This document shows, one piece after another, positions 6,442 through 16,035 of a stretch of DNA of 64,000 bases; position 1 is the stretch's first letter; each line of letters begins with the position of its first letter. The notes below the pieces were generated by a model that had not been told where the DNA came from, did not search any database, and saw only the letters and a program-made list of their open reading frames with translations. Both the position numbers and the translations under genes were made by a program. The DNA is from an uncultured bacterium (GTDB lineage Bacteria > Desulfobacterota > GWC2-55-46). The DNA lies in the NCBI GenBank assembly GCA_905339405.1, contig CAJPGC010000014.1, forward strand, positions 1-64,000. The letters run 5' to 3'.

Positions 6442-7929
6442 ATGGCAAAAAGGATTCTTCTGGCAGACGATTCAATAACCATCCAGAAGGTCATCTCGAT
6501 AACCTTCGCCTCTGAGGACTACGACCTTACGGTCGTGGGCGACGGAGAGGCGGCCATACAGAAGGCCAGGGAATTGAAACCCGACCTTGTCATGGCTGAC
6601 GTGGCAATGCCCGGCAAGACAGGGTACGAGGTCTGCTCTTTCGTCAAGAACGACCCCGGCCTCAAAGGGACCCCGGTCCTTCTTCTTGCCGGGACTTTCG
6701 AGCCGCTCAACAAGGACGAAGCCATAAAGGCCGGAGCCGACGACAGCATAGTAAAGCCATTTGAATCGCAGGAGCTCCTCGACAAGGTGCGCGAGCTCCT
6801 TTCCAGGGCGGCCGGGCCGGAGATGGCCTCGGCGTCCACCAGGGCCGCTTCCGCTCCCGCAGAAGTACAGGCCAGCGACATGTGGGAGGCCGGTGACTTC
6901 CTCACCCTTCCGGACGAATTCGAGGAGAAAAAAGACGACGGTGGCGCTGACCTTGATTTCCTTTCCTCAGGCGCGCTCTTCGAGGCCGACGACCACAAGG
7001 AACTGTCTCTTCCGCACGAGGCCCAGGATTTCACGGACCTCGTCATACAAGATGAGGAATTGAAGCCCATATCGGCGGAACCCGAAGGGCACAAGTTCGA
7101 GCCTCTTTCGACCGAGCACACCTTTGACGCCGGTTTCGACGGCTTCAAGGAAGAGCCCGAGCGGCCCGCCTTTGACTTGAGCGCGTTCGAGCTCAAGGAA
7201 GAGCCCAAAAAAACAGAAGCCTTCGAGGTCGAGTCTTTCGACCTCGAGCCTTTCAGGCCCGAAAAGAAAGATGAGCGCGTAATACAGCCGTGGGAGCTGC
7301 CGGTTGGTGAGGCAAAAATAGAGGAAAAAGAGTTCGCCGAGCCGGACCTCCTCGAGATACCCGAAGAGGTCGTTGACGCGACCCCGAACCCTTTCGCCAG
7401 AGGCGATGAGGCCAGGCAGGCGTTCGACAGGCCGTTCGAAGCTCCGAGGCCGATAAGGGAAGTGATGCAGCCCGAAGCCCCCAAGACCGCCCAGTTCTCC
7501 GAGGAAGAGGTCGCCAAAGCGCTGCAGAGGGCCGCTGACAAGGTCGAGGAGAGGCTAATAGAGGACCTGAACCTCAAGCTCGGCAAGGCCGAATCGAAGG
7601 TCGCCGAGGCGATAGAGCGGGCTGCTGCGCGTGTCGAGGAGAAGCTCAGGGCCGACCTCGGTCAGAAGCTCGAGAAGGTCGACTCGCAGGTGGCGAGGGC
7701 CATCGAGAACACGGTTGCCCGTCTCGAGGAGAGGCTCAAGAGCGAGCTCAGCATAAAGCTGGAGAAATCGCTGGCGATGCCAAAGGAACAGATCGAGGCG
7801 ATCGTGGCCAGGACCTCGAAGCAGGTCGTGGAGCACGTGGCATGGGAGGTGCTCCCGGAGCTTGCAGAGCGTCTCATAAAAACAGAGATAAACAAGGTAA
7901 AGGACGCCTTCATAAGGTCCCGCTCATAA
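6442..7929 (+). CDS. Response regulator with N-terminal receiver domain, long acidic linker and C-terminal amphipathic-helix repeats
   Basis: Receiver hallmarks ILLADDSITIQ, PDLVMADVAMPGKTGYEV, DSIVKPF; C-terminal three-copy 30-aa repeat. Confidence 0.9.
   Translation: MAKRILLADDSITIQKVISITFASEDYDLTVVGDGEAAIQKARELKPDLVMADVAMPGKTGYEVCSFVKNDPGLKGTPVLLLAGTFEPLNKDEAIKAGADDSIVKPFESQELLDKVRELLSRAAGPEMASASTRAASAPAEVQASDMWEAGDFLTLPDEFEEKKDDGGADLDFLSSGALFEADDHKELSLPHEAQDFTDLVIQDEELKPISAEPEGHKFEPLSTEHTFDAGFDGFKEEPERPAFDLSAFELKEEPKKTEAFEVESFDLEPFRPEKKDERVIQPWELPVGEAKIEEKEFAEPDLLEIPEEVVDATPNPFARGDEARQAFDRPFEAPRPIREVMQPEAPKTAQFSEEEVAKALQRAADKVEERLIEDLNLKLGKAESKVAEAIERAAARVEEKLRADLGQKLEKVDSQVARAIENTVARLEERLKSELSIKLEKSLAMPKEQIEAIVARTSKQVVEHVAWEVLPELAERLIKTEINKVKDAFIRSRS
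7510..7779 (+). repeat. Three tandem 90-bp/30-aa coding repeats
   Basis: VAKALQRAADKVEERLIEDLNLKLGKAESK / VAEAIERAAARVEEKLRADLGQKLEKVDSQ / VARAIENTVARLEERLKSELSIKLEKSLAM at 7510-7599, 7600-7689, 7690-7779. Confidence 0.9.
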
Positions 7930-7947
7930 AGATAAAGGTCCGCTCAT

Positions 7948-7984
7948 AATTCTCTGCCTCTTCAAGGGGGCAGAGAATTTTTTT
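7948..7984 (+). terminator. Intrinsic terminator downstream of the response regulator gene
   Basis: aattctctgcc tcttcaagg gggcagagaatttttttg. Confidence 0.85.
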
Positions 7985-8017
7985 GTTTTTTTTGGCTCAA
8001 AACCAACATATAATCAA

Positions 8018-8136
8018 ATGATTATCCGCTGAAAAATACCTGGCGTATGCCCGGACAGCCCGGTTCCCGGGCGGATAGTATTACTTTTACGCGTTACGCC
8101 TGCTACCCTGGACATTCAATCCAGGGTAGTCTTTTT
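8018..8136 (+). ncRNA. Putative structured leader RNA or small RNA upstream of valS, ending in a terminator-like hairpin
   Basis: TATAAT at 8009-8014; outer stem tatccgc...gcggata; final hairpin ctaccctgga-cattcaa-tccagggtag followed by tcttttta (8103-8136). Confidence 0.4.
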
Positions 8137-8170
8137 ACACCCAATAAAAAAACAGGTCTGGAAAGCCGAC

Positions 8171-10840
8171 ATGAGCGACAAGACACTTGAAAAGACTTAC
8201 GAGCCCGCAACCGTTGAGCAGAGGTGGGCGAAGTTCTGGATAGATGAAAAGGCCGCCACCCCCGATCTTTCCTCGAAGAAGCCCTGCTTCTCGATGGTCA
8301 TTCCTCCCCCCAACATCACAGGCGCGCTGCACCTCGGGCACGCGTTGAACTCAACGCTTCAGGACATACTCGCCCGCTACAAGCGCATGAAGGGCTTCAA
8401 CGTCCTGTGGCTGCCCGGCATCGACCACGCAGGCATCGCCACGCAGAACGTCGTTGAAAAGCAGCTCGCTGCAGAGGGCAAGAGCCGACACGACGTCGGA
8501 AGGGAAGAGTTCATCGAGCGGGTATGGAAGTGGAAGGGCGAGTCCGGCGGGACGATAATAAACCAGCTGAAGAGGCTCGGGGCTTCCTGCGACTGGACGC
8601 GCCAGAGGTTCACGATGGACGAGGGCCTCTCTAAAGCCGTCCGCGAAGTCTTCACGAAGCTCTACGAAGAGGGGCTAATATACCAGGGCGACTATATAAT
8701 CAACTGGTGCCCGAGGTGCCACACCGCGCTTTCCGACCTCGAGGTCGAGTTCAACGAATCAGAGGGCAGCCTGTGGCACATGGTCTATCCGCTGGCCGAG
8801 CCGGTGGGCGATATAACGTCCCTTACGGTGGCAACGACCAGGCCTGAGACCATGCTGGGGGACACAGCCGTCGCGGTAAACCCCGAAGACGAGCGGTACA
8901 AATCCATAATAGGCAAGAAGATAAGGCTCCCCTTCACCGGCAGGGAGATCCCAATAATAGCCGACGATTCGGTCTCTATCGAGTTCGGCACTGGCGCGGT
9001 GAAGATAACTCCGGCGCACGACTTCAATGACTTCGAGGTGGGCAGACGCCACAACCTGCCTACGCTCAAGGTAATGGACATAAACGCCCGCATGAACGAG
9101 AACGCCGGGCAGTTCAAGGGGCTCGACAGGTACGAGGCGAGAAAGAAGATAGTCGAAGGGCTCGAGGAGCAGGGCCTTCTGGAGAAGGTCGACAAGCACA
9201 AACTCATGCTCGGCGGCTGCTACAGGTGCTCTACTACGGTCGAGCCGACCCTCTCGAAGCAGTGGTTCGTGAAGGTCGCCCCGCTCGCCGAACCGGCCAT
9301 TAAGGCCGTTGAGGAAGGGCAGACGAGGTTCGTACCGAAGAACTGGGAGAACCTCTACTTCGACTGGATGAGGAACATCCGCGACTGGTGCATATCCCGC
9401 CAGATATGGTGGGGCCACAGGATACCGGCGTGGCACTGCAAAGACTGCGGCGGCGTCACGGTAGCATCCGTCGACCCCACGAGCTGCTCGAAGTGCGGCA
9501 AGGGAAATATCGAGCAGGACCCCGACGTGCTCGACACCTGGTTTTCGTCCGCGCTCTGGCCTTTTTCCACCCTCGGCTGGCCTGACAAGACAAAAGAACT
9601 GGAACTTTTCTACCCGACCGCGGTCCTTTCAACGAGCTTCGACATCATCTTCTTCTGGGTCGCCAGGATGATGATGATGGGCTTGAAGTTCATGGACGAC
9701 GTGCCCTTCAAAGACGTCTACATACACGCGCTCATAAGGGACTCCAAGGGCCAGAAGATGAGCAAGTCAAAGGGGAACGTCATCGACCCGCTCGTGATGA
9801 TGGAAAAGTACGGCACCGACGCCTTCAGGTTCACACTGGCAGTGCTGGCCGCACAGGGGCGCGACATAAGGCTTGCCGAGGAGAGGATCTCCGGGTACAG
9901 GAACTTCTGCAACAAGATATGGAACGTGGCGAGGTTCACCCTCATGAACCTCGAAGATTATAAAGACGGCCTTGACGAGCAGAAGTTCAACATGGCTGAC
10001 AAGTGGATATGGGACAGGCGGGGAGCCTGCATCAGGGAGGTCTCCGAAGCCATTGAGGGCTACAGGTTCGACGAGGCCGGGAGGGTGCTCTACAGGTTCG
10101 TCTGGCACGAGCTCTGCGACTGGTACGTCGAGCTCGTAAAGCTCGACCTCAGGGGAGAGCACGGCCCCGAAAGGAAATTGTGCGCCCAGCAGGTGCTCGT
10201 GACCGTCATGAGGGACGTGATGAAGCTTTTGCATCCTTTCATGCCGTTCATCACCGAAGAGATAGCCGAAAAGCTTCCGGGCTATGAGGGGAGCGTCATG
10301 CTCTCGGAGTTCCCGAAGGAGGGAGCGGCATTCCCGTTGGAGGCCTCGCGGATGGAAGACGCCATGGACGTAATCCGGGCGGTGAGGAACATCCGCACCG
10401 ACATGAACGTCGCGCCGTCGGCCATGACCGGCTGCGTCTGCCACGTGAAGGACGCCTCGTTGAGGAAGACCCTCGAGGACAGCGCCGAGTACATAAGGCA
10501 GTTGGGCCGCATTAAAGACCTCGTCATATCCGAAGGCGGGGAGAAGCCCAGGGACGCGGTCTCCGCGCTGGCCGGCGGCGGTGAGAGTAAATCGATTGAG
10601 GTATTCGTGCCGCTCGGCGGCCTCGTCGATTTCGACGTCGAGGAGAAGAGGCTCGTAAAAGAGCTCGAAAAGACCGAAGCCGAGCACGCGGGAGTGGCGA
10701 AGAAGCTGTCCAACCCCGAGTTCACCGACAAGGCCCCCGCAGAGATAGTGGAGAAGGACAGGGCGAGGCTCGAGGCCTTGACCGAGAAGAAGGCGAAACT
10801 TTCAACCGGCCTCGAACGGATAAGGAGCATAAGGGCTTGA
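8171..10840 (+). CDS. valS: Valyl-tRNA synthetase
   Basis: 889 aa; PPPNITGALHLGHALN (HIGH), GQKMSKSKGNVIDP (KMSKS), C-terminal coiled coil. Confidence 0.98.
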   Translation: MSDKTLEKTYEPATVEQRWAKFWIDEKAATPDLSSKKPCFSMVIPPPNITGALHLGHALNSTLQDILARYKRMKGFNVLWLPGIDHAGIATQNVVEKQLAAEGKSRHDVGREEFIERVWKWKGESGGTIINQLKRLGASCDWTRQRFTMDEGLSKAVREVFTKLYEEGLIYQGDYIINWCPRCHTALSDLEVEFNESEGSLWHMVYPLAEPVGDITSLTVATTRPETMLGDTAVAVNPEDERYKSIIGKKIRLPFTGREIPIIADDSVSIEFGTGAVKITPAHDFNDFEVGRRHNLPTLKVMDINARMNENAGQFKGLDRYEARKKIVEGLEEQGLLEKVDKHKLMLGGCYRCSTTVEPTLSKQWFVKVAPLAEPAIKAVEEGQTRFVPKNWENLYFDWMRNIRDWCISRQIWWGHRIPAWHCKDCGGVTVASVDPTSCSKCGKGNIEQDPDVLDTWFSSALWPFSTLGWPDKTKELELFYPTAVLSTSFDIIFFWVARMMMMGLKFMDDVPFKDVYIHALIRDSKGQKMSKSKGNVIDPLVMMEKYGTDAFRFTLAVLAAQGRDIRLAEERISGYRNFCNKIWNVARFTLMNLEDYKDGLDEQKFNMADKWIWDRRGACIREVSEAIEGYRFDEAGRVLYRFVWHELCDWYVELVKLDLRGEHGPERKLCAQQVLVTVMRDVMKLLHPFMPFITEEIAEKLPGYEGSVMLSEFPKEGAAFPLEASRMEDAMDVIRAVRNIRTDMNVAPSAMTGCVCHVKDASLRKTLEDSAEYIRQLGRIKDLVISEGGEKPRDAVSALAGGGESKSIEVFVPLGGLVDFDVEEKRLVKELEKTEAEHAGVAKKLSNPEFTDKAPAEIVEKDRARLEALTEKKAKLSTGLERIRSIRA

Positions 10841-11724
10841 TCAAACCGATAAAGAACGACATACCGGGCCTTCTGGAGTACTCCGGCATACTTGTAGACG
10901 CCGCGCTAGCCGAGGACATCGGCGAAGGCGACGTTACTACCCGCGCCATTGTAAAGAAGGGGCAGGAGGGCAAGGCCGAGTTCATCGCGAAAGAGGAGAT
11001 GGTCGTCTCCGGGCTCTTCATCGCCGAGATGGCTTTCACGCGCCTGGACAGGAAGGCCGTCTTCAAGACGAAGTTCAAAGACGGCAGCCGCGTTAGAAAA
11101 GGCGAGGTGATTGCCACGGTCACTGGCGGCCTCGGCGCGCTCCTCACGGGCGAGCGCGTGGCCCTCAACTTCCTCCAGAGGCTCTCGGGCATAGCTACCA
11201 AAACGAACGGCTTCGTGAAGGCGATGAAGTCCTCTAAGACAAGGCTCCTGGACACGAGGAAGACCACGCCGTGCCTGCGCCCCCTGGAGAAGTACGCGGT
11301 CGTCTCCGGCGGCGGGACGAACCACAGGCTGGGCCTCTATGACAGCGTCCTCATAAAGGACAACCACATAATGGCTGCGGGGTCTGTCACGGCCGCCGTC
11401 GCGGCGGTCAGGAAAAAGCACGGGGACGAACTCGCCATCGAGGTCGAAGTCACCAATATGGCCGAGGTGAAAGAAGCGCTCGCGTCGTCGGCAGACATAA
11501 TAATGCTCGACAACATGAAAGTGCCTGCCATGAAAAAGGCGTTGGCCCTCATAGGAGACAAGGCGCTCGTCGAGGCCTCCGGAAACGTCGATATCGCCAA
11601 CATAGGCATGGTTGCCTCCACCGGGGTCGATTTCATCTCCGCAGGGGCTCTCACCCATTCGGCAAGGGCCATTGACATAAGCATGGAAGTCGTCTCCATA
11701 TGGGCGAAAAAGAACAGGAAGTAG
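10837..11724 (+). CDS. nadC: Nicotinate-nucleotide pyrophosphorylase (carboxylating)
   Basis: ALAEDIGEGDVTTRAIV, LLDTRKTTPCLRPLEKYAVVSGGGTNHRLGLYDSVLIKDNH, FISAGALTHSARAIDISMEV. Confidence 0.97.
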   Translation: MIKPIKNDIPGLLEYSGILVDAALAEDIGEGDVTTRAIVKKGQEGKAEFIAKEEMVVSGLFIAEMAFTRLDRKAVFKTKFKDGSRVRKGEVIATVTGGLGALLTGERVALNFLQRLSGIATKTNGFVKAMKSSKTRLLDTRKTTPCLRPLEKYAVVSGGGTNHRLGLYDSVLIKDNHIMAAGSVTAAVAAVRKKHGDELAIEVEVTNMAEVKEALASSADIIMLDNMKVPAMKKALALIGDKALVEASGNVDIANIGMVASTGVDFISAGALTHSARAIDISMEVVSIWAKKNRK

Positions 11725-12671
11725 AGATAATAAGGCTCCTCAAGGCCGGGGCCGGGTACACCTCCGGCCAGTCCTTGAGCGCGTCCCTGGGCGTCTCCAG
11801 GACGGCCGTATGGAAGCATATCGAGGCCTTGAGGAAGATGGGCTACGCCATAGAGGCGAGCCCGTCGAAGGGGTACAGGCTCCTTGAAGCAAGGCCGTTC
11901 AACGGGGTGGAGCTGCAAACGCTCCTTTCTGGAAAGCTGTTCGGAAGAGAGGTCCACTTCTTCGACAGCATCGATTCGACGAACGCGAAGGCCTTCGAGC
12001 TCGCCAGAGAAGGCGCTCCCGAGGGCACAATCGTCGTAGCCGAGACCCAGACAAGGGGCAAGGGAAGGATAGGCAGAAAATGGGAATCTCCCGCAGGGAT
12101 GAACCTTTATCTTTCGGTCATTCTGAGGCCGAAAGTCGCGCCACAGGGTGCTCAGGGGCTCACCTTCGTCGCGGCAGTGGCCGCGGCAGAAGCTGTCAGT
12201 GCCAGCGGGGTAAAGCCAGCAGTGAAGTGGCCCAACGATATTTTGATAGGTGGACGAAAGACGGCCGGAATACTCCTTGAGATGGACTCCGAGCCCGACA
12301 GGGTGCATTTCGTGGTCGCGGGCATAGGCGTCAACCTGAATGCCAGAAGGGACATGTTCCCGGAATATATAAAAGATACTGCGACTTCCCTCTTCGAGGA
12401 GACGGGTTCCTCGATAGACAGGGGCCTTTTCACGGCAAGGCTGCTTTCGAGCATGGAAAGATGGTATGGGGTATACTTGAGTGAAGGGTTTGTACCTGTC
12501 CTCGAGGCATGGAAGGGCAGCTTCAGGACGGTCGGAAAGCCCGTGAAGGTGACTTTTTTCGACAGGACCATCGAAGGGATATGCGCGGGGGTAGACTCTG
12601 ACGGCGCGCTCCTCCTTGAGCGAGAAGGCCGCCTCGAGAGGATAATCTCCGGGGACGTGGAGGCTCTGTAG
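11700..12671 (+). CDS. birA: Bifunctional BirA: biotin-[acetyl-CoA-carboxylase] ligase with N-terminal HTH
   Basis: N-terminal wHTH; STNAKAFELA, TQTRGKGRIGRKWESPAGMNLYLSVILRP, VKWPNDILIGGRKTAGIL. Confidence 0.96.
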   Translation: MGEKEQEVEIIRLLKAGAGYTSGQSLSASLGVSRTAVWKHIEALRKMGYAIEASPSKGYRLLEARPFNGVELQTLLSGKLFGREVHFFDSIDSTNAKAFELAREGAPEGTIVVAETQTRGKGRIGRKWESPAGMNLYLSVILRPKVAPQGAQGLTFVAAVAAAEAVSASGVKPAVKWPNDILIGGRKTAGILLEMDSEPDRVHFVVAGIGVNLNARRDMFPEYIKDTATSLFEETGSSIDRGLFTARLLSSMERWYGVYLSEGFVPVLEAWKGSFRTVGKPVKVTFFDRTIEGICAGVDSDGALLLEREGRLERIISGDVEAL

Positions 12672-13429
12672 TGCTCCTCGCCATAGACATAGGCAACACG
12701 AACATCGTCATAGGCGTCTTCGACGGCGGCCTGAAGGGCCACTGGCGCGTCTCCACGGACGCCGGGAAAACCTCTGACGAGTACGGGCTTACTCTCCTGG
12801 GCCTGCTTGCGGCCTCAGGCATGGATAAAAAGGCTGTCCACGGCGCGATAGCGGCTTCCGTCGTGCCGAGGCTCACGCCGACGATAACGGCGGCAATCTT
12901 CGAGTACCTGGGGCTGACCTGCCGCGTTGTGACGCACCAGAACTGCCTCATGCCGGTCTTGACCGACAACCCGGAAGAGGTCGGGGCCGACAGGCTTGTG
13001 AACGCGGTGGCCGCGTTCCATGAGCACAGGCGCTCTCTCATAGCCGTTGATTTCGGCACGGCCGTGACCTTCGATTACGTGACTGAAAGAGGCGAGTACG
13101 CGGGAGGGATAATAGCCCCCGGCATCTCGATTTCATCCGAAGCCCTTTTCAGCAGGACCGCCAGGCTCCCGATGGTCGAGGCTGGAAGGCCATCGGTCCT
13201 CATAGGCAAGAACACGGTGGACTCCATGCGCTCCGGGATATTCTACGGATTCCTGGGCCTCGTGGACGGGATTTTAGAGCGTATGATGAAAGAGACGGGC
13301 GCCAGCCCGGTAATAGTATCAACCGGCGGGCTCGCCCCGCTGGTCGTCGGAGAATCGAAGTATATAACCGGAACTGATGAATTCCTGACGCTCAAGGGTT
13401 TGAAGATAATCTACGAAGGGAAGATGTAA
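12671..13429 (+). CDS. coaX: Type III pantothenate kinase
   Basis: MLLAIDIGNTNIVIGVFDG, GADRLVNAVAAF, VDFGTAVTFDYV, YAGGIIAPGISIS. Confidence 0.97.
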   Translation: MLLAIDIGNTNIVIGVFDGGLKGHWRVSTDAGKTSDEYGLTLLGLLAASGMDKKAVHGAIAASVVPRLTPTITAAIFEYLGLTCRVVTHQNCLMPVLTDNPEEVGADRLVNAVAAFHEHRRSLIAVDFGTAVTFDYVTERGEYAGGIIAPGISISSEALFSRTARLPMVEAGRPSVLIGKNTVDSMRSGIFYGFLGLVDGILERMMKETGASPVIVSTGGLAPLVVGESKYITGTDEFLTLKGLKIIYEGKM

Positions 13430-13433
13430 GCGG

Positions 13434-13901
13434 ATGTCCGAAGCACGGGAGCAGTTTGTCGCTGGAAAGAGGTTTCTTCGCGAAGATAATGTCGACAAGG
13501 CCTTGAGGCACTTCGAGAAGGCATGGAAGGAAGACAAGGAAAACGCCGAGTATATGTCCTACTACGGCCTGTGTAAGGCGCTCCGTGGAGGAGAGATAGG
13601 CCTGGGGCTCGAACTGTGCACGAGGGCCATAAAAAAAGAGTTCTTCAAGGCCGAGTTCTATCTGAACCTGGGCAGGGTCTACATGGCCGCCGGGAACAAG
13701 AAGGGCGCGATAAAGGTATTTAAAAAAGGGCTCAGGTACGACCAGGGCAACGAGGAGCTATACAAGGCTTTGACCGGCCTGGGCTTCAGGACAAGGCCGG
13801 TGATACCTCTACTGGACAGGGCCAACCCGATGAACAAGTTCCTGGGCATCCTCATTCGCAGGACCATCCCGAACATGTTCAGCCGGAGGAAAAAGGAATA
13901 G
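13434..13901 (+). CDS. TPR-repeat protein
   Basis: 155 aa with TPR-like helices (AEFYLNLGRVYMAAGNKKGAIKVFKKGLRYD). Confidence 0.75.
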   Translation: MSEAREQFVAGKRFLREDNVDKALRHFEKAWKEDKENAEYMSYYGLCKALRGGEIGLGLELCTRAIKKEFFKAEFYLNLGRVYMAAGNKKGAIKVFKKGLRYDQGNEELYKALTGLGFRTRPVIPLLDRANPMNKFLGILIRRTIPNMFSRRKKE

Positions 13902-13935
13902 CTATCGAACTTTCTCACCATAAGGAGGTGTTTTT

Positions 13936-16035
13936 GTGGAAGTCTCCATGGACAAAAAGAGGAACGTCTCGATAATCGCCCACGGCGGGGCCGGAAAGAC
14001 CTCCCTCGCCGAGGCCATGCTCTTCAACGCGAAGGCCATCGACAGGCTCGGAAAGGTGGACGACGGCACCTCTCACCTTGACTTCGAGCCCGAGGAGCAG
14101 AAAAGAAAGATAACCATCTCGGCGGCCGTCCATCACTACGACTGGGACGGCTGCCGGGTGAACGTCATCGACACGCCGGGCTATTCAAACTTCCTCACCG
14201 AAACGCGCGACTCATTGAGGGTCGTGGGCGGAGCGGTAGTCATCATCAGCGCCATATCCGGCGTAAAGGTCCAGACGGAAAAAATATGGGAGTTCGGCGA
14301 CGAGTTCGAGGTCTGCAGGGTCGCGTTCGTCAACAAGATGGACCGCGAGAGGGCTTCTTTTCTTCGAGCCGTCGACGACATGGAAAAGGTCCTCAAGGTC
14401 AAGGGCGTGCCCATGCAGATACCGATGGGCGAGGGCCCGGAGTTCACCGGCCTCATCGACCTCATGGAGATGAAGGCCCATACCTGCTCCCTTGACGGCT
14501 CCGGCGCGTTCGAGACGTCGGAGATACCAGCACAATACACGAAAGAGGCCGCCGCGATGAGGGAGAACATGGTCGCGGCCATCGTCGAGTCAGACGACGC
14601 GCTCACTGAGAAGTACCTGGACGGGCAGAAGATAGCCGCAGAAGAGCTAAAGAAGGCCCTCCGCGAGGGCGTCTTGACCCGCAGGTTCATACCGGTTTAC
14701 CTGGGCTCGGCAGTGAAGAACATGGGCGTCAACTTCCTGATGGACGCCGTCAACCTCACGCTGCCGTCCCCGCTCGACAAGGGCATGATAAGGGGGCACA
14801 TAAAGGGCATCGACCCGAGGAGCGGCCAGGAGATAGAGCAGGAGCCCGACCCGTCGGCCCCGTTCTCGGCCTTCGTCTTCAAGAGCCTCATCGACCCGTA
14901 TACAGGTAAGCTTTCCATCTTCAGGATATTCTCGGGGACCCTCCATGCCGACGCGACCGTCCTCAATTCGACGCGCGATTCGAAAGAGAAGCTTTCGCAC
15001 CTGTATCTCATGGAGGGCAAGAAATTGAAGGAGGTCGCGAGGGCAGAGGCGGGCGACATAGTGGCCGTCTCCAAGCTCAAGGACACCCACATAGGTGACA
15101 CCCTCACTGACGTCGCCTCGCCGGTTAAGTTCGCGCCGTTCCCGCCGGTGGCGGCTTCGCTTTCATACGCGCTCCACCCCAGGACGAAGTCCGACGAGGA
15201 CAAGGCCCCCTCGGCCATAGAGAAGCTCATGGAGGAGGACCCTTCGATAGACTTCCACATGGATGAGCAGACAAAGGAGTTCCTCCTCTCAGGCGTTGGG
15301 CAGGTCCATCTCGAGGTGGCCGTCGAAAAGCTCAAACGCAAGTTCGGCTGCGACGTCGAGCTCAAGACGCCCAGGGTGCCCTACAAGGAGACGATAAGGT
15401 CGCACGTGAAGGTGCAGGGCAAGTATAAGAAGCAGTCCGGCGGAAGGGGCCAGTACGGGGACACCTGGCTCGACATCTCGCCTCTGCCGAGGGGCAGGGG
15501 CTTTGAGTTTGTCGACCAGATAACCGGCGGGGCCATCCCCAGGCAGTTCATACCGGCTGTCGAAAAAGGCGTGCGCGAGGCGATGCTCTCGGGCATCCTC
15601 GCAGGCTTCCCCGTCGTGGACGTCAGGGTCGCCCTTTACGACGGCACGTACCACACCGTCGACTCTTCGGAGATGGCTTTCAAGATAGCCGCGTCGATGG
15701 GCTTCAAGAAAGGCATGGAGCAGGCAAGCCCGGTGCTCCTGGAGCCCGTCATGAAGATGGAGATAAACGTGCCGGACGACAAGCTCGGCGACATAATAGG
15801 CGACGTGAACTCGCGCCGCGGCAAGATACTCGGGGCAGAGCCCAAGGCCGGCAGCCAGACCATAAAGGCCCTCGTGCCGATGGCCGAGGTCATAACCTAT
15901 GCCACCGACCTGCGCGGCATGACCGCCGACAGGGGCATATTCACGATGGAGTTCTCCCATTACGAGGAGGTGCCGACCTATTTGAGCCAGAAGATAATAA
16001 CGGCCGCGAAGCCTGAAAAAGAGAGGGCGCAATAA
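13936..16035 (+). CDS. fusA: Translation elongation factor G paralog (EF-G2-like)
   Basis: 699 aa; IIAHGGAGKTSLAEAML, VIDTPGYSNF, FVNKMDRERA; G1 is AHGGAGKT rather than the canonical AHIDAGKTT. Confidence 0.9.
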   Translation: MEVSMDKKRNVSIIAHGGAGKTSLAEAMLFNAKAIDRLGKVDDGTSHLDFEPEEQKRKITISAAVHHYDWDGCRVNVIDTPGYSNFLTETRDSLRVVGGAVVIISAISGVKVQTEKIWEFGDEFEVCRVAFVNKMDRERASFLRAVDDMEKVLKVKGVPMQIPMGEGPEFTGLIDLMEMKAHTCSLDGSGAFETSEIPAQYTKEAAAMRENMVAAIVESDDALTEKYLDGQKIAAEELKKALREGVLTRRFIPVYLGSAVKNMGVNFLMDAVNLTLPSPLDKGMIRGHIKGIDPRSGQEIEQEPDPSAPFSAFVFKSLIDPYTGKLSIFRIFSGTLHADATVLNSTRDSKEKLSHLYLMEGKKLKEVARAEAGDIVAVSKLKDTHIGDTLTDVASPVKFAPFPPVAASLSYALHPRTKSDEDKAPSAIEKLMEEDPSIDFHMDEQTKEFLLSGVGQVHLEVAVEKLKRKFGCDVELKTPRVPYKETIRSHVKVQGKYKKQSGGRGQYGDTWLDISPLPRGRGFEFVDQITGGAIPRQFIPAVEKGVREAMLSGILAGFPVVDVRVALYDGTYHTVDSSEMAFKIAASMGFKKGMEQASPVLLEPVMKMEINVPDDKLGDIIGDVNSRRGKILGAEPKAGSQTIKALVPMAEVITYATDLRGMTADRGIFTMEFSHYEEVPTYLSQKIITAAKPEKERAQ

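Follow-up and report, generated by a model that had tools for sequence, protein, structure and literature searches.

Leader-peptide attenuators of the ilv, leu and pheST type act in Proteobacteria, and the valS locus described here resembles them in that the leader of an amino-acid-related operon carries a terminator; however, the valS leader contains neither a valine-codon leader peptide nor a shared antiterminator. The T-box leaders of aminoacyl-tRNA synthetase genes (RF00230) also attenuate transcription before a synthetase gene, but no T-box was found at valS, in the source genome or in 58 relatives. By analogy, the closest described case would be the rimP-leader, a bare premature terminator before rimP-nusA-infB that shows no antiterminator; Naville and Gautheret proposed that a protein factor acts there (2010, PMC2965389). 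Like the rimP-leader, the valS leader places a terminator with a U-tract between the promoter and the first gene of a translation-related operon, and it too lacks a larger conserved element or visible antiterminator. It differs in having no GGGc...gCCC stem motif, in belonging to a different operon and in being confined to one genus, and with the stem CUACCCUGGA/UCCAGGGUAG and valS as its gene it falls outside the rimP-leader family. The hairpin energies also agree with the reported distinction between 5′ and 3′ terminators, which average -16.5 and -20.2, respectively (PMC2965389): the valS leader hairpin folds at -18.2 kcal/mol and the 3′ terminator of the upstream response-regulator gene at -20.5 kcal/mol, although valS is absent from the main text of that study. 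A valS attenuator of the same type was not found in the literature searched. The valS element nevertheless belongs to an already known kind of control, early termination, with a hairpin and U-tract lying between the promoter and the first start codon.

We compared 59 genomes (the source genome and 58 relatives), most of which gave a full-strength match to the valS N-terminus. Within the genus valS was readable in three members: the source genome (G000), its nearest relative (G001) and the more distant G002. The features of the locus in the window, which is the whole 64,000-nucleotide stretch analysed and in which positions 7400–8700 were inspected as sequence, are as follows.

7948–7989, + strand: rho-independent terminator of the upstream response-regulator gene, with a 14-bp stem and one G interrupting the T-run
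8009–8014, + strand: -10 box TATAAT, assigned to the valS promoter, kept in three genus members and five sister-genus genomes
8015–8035, + strand: conserved block CAAATGATTATCCGCTGAAAA just past the -10 box, identical in G001 and matching at 14 of 21 positions in G002, containing ATG ATT ATC CGC TGA
8036–8101, + strand: variable middle of the leader, with a GC hairpin at 8058–8072; neither sequence nor pairing is conserved
8102–8136, + strand: predicted premature intrinsic terminator, with stem 8102–8112/8120–8130, loop CATTCAA and U-tract 8130–8135
8137–8170, + strand: post-terminator leader with the conserved TGGAAAGC, the ribosome-binding region
8171–10840, + strand: valS, valine–tRNA ligase, first gene of the run (TIGR00422, 1143.9 bits against a cut-off of 612.1)
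10837–16035, + strand: nadC, birA, a coaX-type pantothenate kinase gene, a TPR protein gene and an EF-G-like fusA, in line after valS

The response-regulator gene (6442–7929) upstream of valS ends in a strong terminator, a hairpin at 7948–7979 followed by a long T-run with a single G break. The same T-run also forms the -35 region or upstream part of the valS promoter. Its distance to the TATAAT box is nearly fixed at 15–16 nt in the genomes read of two genera (g1 and g6), and five genomes of the sister genus g6 carry the same arrangement of terminator, long T-run, 15–16 nt and TATAAT. In two of them (G023 and G029) the promoter enters valS after only 68 and 36 nt, without a second terminator. 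Because a promoter with the same spacing and the same upstream terminator leads into valS in the sister genus, the TATAAT box at 8009–8014, which the first-pass annotation had already marked and which is retained in both genera, is on sequence evidence the promoter that serves valS, and the hairpin at 8102–8136 would consequently lie inside the valS 5′ leader. Transcription is expected to start at ~8020–8022. This assignment bears directly on whether the locus is instead an independent sRNA gene of ~115 nt that has a promoter and terminator of its own and a function elsewhere, while valS is transcribed from another promoter. A promoter, a structured body and a terminator are all present, as such a gene would need, but the promoter serves valS directly in the sister genomes, no convincing second promoter lies in the 35 nt from the U-tract to valS, and the RNA was found upstream of valS only, with a body that is not conserved even within the genus. 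No conserved RNA separable from the downstream gene was thus recovered, and we regard the sRNA reading as very unlikely. A leader sequence search of 30 family genomes returned G001 as the only true match; a match in G026 lay outside any valS leader, and one in G003 (contig C142) was due to chance. The original proposal of an attenuator or an sRNA therefore survives as a terminator in a valS leader without a T-box, while its sRNA option is disfavoured and its mini-uORF is not supported.

The terminator itself is as first described, a perfect 10-bp hairpin formed by CTACCCTGGA (8103–8112) and TCCAGGGTAG (8120–8129) and followed by TCTTTTTAC, and an outer G-U pair extends the stem to 11 bp. An equally good hairpin with a U-tract appeared in 1 of 200 dinucleotide shuffles of the source-genome leader, and the G001 hairpin and U-tract were likewise equalled by 1 of 200. 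The whole 120-nt segment folded with z = -3.6, a value that is due to the terminator, since the upstream domain without the terminator gave z = -0.74 (46 of 200 shuffles as stable). As a base rate, we scanned 79 upstream intergenic regions of 60–600 nt in 217 kb of the same genome, using rough ORF calling. In 5 of these 79 regions a terminator-like hairpin lay no more than 100 nt from the gene start, and valS was the only gene preceded by two terminators in the same direction. In the same genome, the upstream regions of ileS- and leuS-like genes showed no terminator near where the gene begins; pheS and class II synthetase genes were also located there.

The promoter and the terminator are kept in all three genus members with readable valS. 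In G001 the promoter is retained together with the 21 nt that follow it, and the terminator stem is identical to that of the source genome. The G002 leader is longer and more divergent, and a hairpin GGCTGCCTGG/CCA-c-GGCAGCC followed by TTTTTGCC lies at the corresponding position, 30 nt upstream of the start codon. Proceeding outward from the shared TGG/CCA, its outer stem differs from that of the source genome by C-G to G-C, A-U to U-A, U-A to C-G and C-G to G-C; these four successive pair differences were read by hand from the sequences and the fold was computed separately. With both sides of four successive pairs changed, the G002 hairpin still folds at -17.4 kcal/mol. When the G002 leader was scanned, the terminal hairpin did not score highest, and it was identified by position, U-tract and folding. 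These pair changes would show that the hairpin has been maintained, short of a full covariation test, as they come from three species and replacement of the whole stem is possible. A comparison of valS leaders, as the first-pass annotation had suggested, bears out the terminator hairpin, kept in three species and still pairing in G002, but not the stem that was said to enclose the upstream domain.

Sister genera with the same promoter yielded no convincing counterpart of the terminator in the valS leader. Three g6 genomes (G008, G027 and G025) have valS leaders of ~150 nt whose best terminator-like hairpins were matched by 38–51 of 200 shuffles. The terminator is therefore best described, from these comparisons, as a genus-level feature inside the valS leader. 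Other leaders also drew our attention: that of G017 (L038) contains additional sequence whose ends resemble inverted repeats (TGTTGAAAAAGTCC ... TTTTTCAACA) between promoter and valS, probably a small mobile or repeat element, and the ~150-nt g6 leaders (L037, L040 and L043) have in common a conserved start TTGGCGGTCCGAGAA as well as a CGGCTTGCAAGCCG hairpin, so that valS may have a structured leader of another type there. That the sister genera do without the hairpin, and that it lies ~120 nt after the terminator of the response-regulator gene, would also suit a back-up terminator of that gene, or a hairpin that stabilises RNA, in either case hardly affecting valS. A back-up terminator here would, however, act on valS transcripts as well, as the conserved valS promoter lies between both terminators, and we consider this explanation unlikely.

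The upstream part of the leader offered no recognisable sensor. The middle (8036–8101) is 45% identical to G001 and 28% identical to G002. The enclosing structure proposed earlier paired tatccgc (8023–8029) with gcggata (8071–8077) around GCCCGG (8058–8063) and CCGGGC (8067–8072), so that two bases (8071–8072) were shared by both stems. The predicted fold closes instead with AUUAUCC (8021–8027) and GGAUAGU (8073–8079), and the proposed closing stem is unsupported because its 3′ arm is gone in G001 despite an intact 5′ arm. As the z-score above indicates, the structured upstream fold is no better than that of shuffled sequence. An Rfam search (Rfam 15), proposed as a check on the leader, found only rRNA in the window at the gathering score and no family matching the leader, and relaxing the threshold to E values up to 10 gave only sub-threshold matches to the leader, none relevant. 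ARAGORN detected no tRNA-like structure. The T-box covariance model (RF00230) had no match in any of the 59 genomes, that of the locus included, while control genomes such as B. subtilis were matched, in agreement with the initial impression that no T-box is present. GC-rich hairpins do occur between promoter and terminator in both the source genome and G001, as they would if the middle domain were a ligand- or tRNA-sensing, riboswitch-like element controlling the terminator. Against this stand the lack of Rfam and T-box matches, the divergence of the middle domain with loss of the closing stem in G001, and the absence of a competing fold in the source genome, making a riboswitch-like element highly improbable. 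Folding transcripts cut before the 3′ arm revealed no antiterminator common to the three species: the terminator 5′ arm is unpaired in the source genome before the 3′ arm is made, with no competing pairing, and part of it pairs in G001 and G002, differently in each. Competing terminator and antiterminator folds were accordingly not detected.

The mini-ORF ATG ATT ATC CGC TGA is present at 8018–8032 as annotated and identical in G001, which could speak for ribosome-mediated attenuation through this or another leader ORF. Its ATG, however, lies 3 nt past the -10 box, and because transcription normally starts 6–8 nt downstream of a -10 box, it would either precede the RNA or form its extreme 5′ end. 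The ATG would then lie no later than the likely start site, leaving no room for a ribosome-binding site. Moreover, G002 has no start codon there, and valine codons are absent from both ATG ORFs of the source-genome leader, the mini-ORF and a 47-codon ORF starting at 8047. Attenuation by a translating ribosome is therefore barely credible.

Given these findings, we favour a lineage-restricted premature terminator, that is, an attenuator, of the valS leader with partial or protein-factor-controlled readthrough, to which we assign a probability of roughly 0.6. The promoter, the terminator, their order and their retention within the genus are established by sequence and comparison. RNA polymerase would start at ~8020–8022 at the valS promoter, make a leader of ~150 nt and meet the intrinsic terminator at 8102–8136; a share of transcripts would end as a ~115-nt RNA, and the remainder would read through into valS-nadC-birA-coaX-TPR-fusA. 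In this run nadC and birA were identified by model and coaX, TPR and fusA by reading translations; the genes are tightly spaced and their order is identical in G001, and from the spacing we infer that they form one operon. The birA after valS has a repressor-like N-terminal domain. Other valS matches in the source genome are 32–34% identical, in the ileS/leuS range, and valS appears to be single-copy. Because it is apparently single-copy and presumably essential, the polymerase must pass the terminator, suggesting that termination would be partial and that valS would depend on readthrough. Since the searches gave no aptamer, T-box or leader peptide and no antiterminator fold shared by the species, readthrough may be constitutive, as a fixed throttle, or set by a NusA/NusG-like factor or an RNA-binding protein acting on RNA polymerase or the hairpin. 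A terminator without a visible sensor could also just work inefficiently, or act by stabilising the RNA.

G001 matches the source genome at all 21 bases that follow the -10 box, though the next 66 nt are only 45% identical. This conserved start may be promoter-related or a binding site. Elsewhere in the genus the 18-nt start block had one 2-mismatch match, inside a coding gene, and one 3-mismatch match, and no regulon emerged; the leader start pairs with the ribosome-binding region in the predicted fold of G001 only. A more specific version is decidedly unlikely; here a protein acting in trans, perhaps ValRS or an elongation factor, would bind the conserved first 15–20 nt of the transcript or the terminator stem and thereby set operon expression. 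If true, such a protein would govern an operon that joins translation, NAD, biotin and CoA functions, with no T-box, leader peptide or riboswitch involved.

Premature terminators that show no recognisable sensor form a known class, although one that is poorly explained. The valS terminator is a clear example ahead of an operon that begins with a synthetase gene; its lineage yielded no T-box, and the terminator was either gained by or kept in a single genus. Because it was seen in only three species, and no convincing equivalent accompanies the same promoter in sister genera, the control has apparently not been widely selected. In a small group of uncultured deltaproteobacteria, early termination thus probably limits valS expression, and the main value of the locus is as one more data point on how synthetase supply is controlled in lineages without T-boxes.
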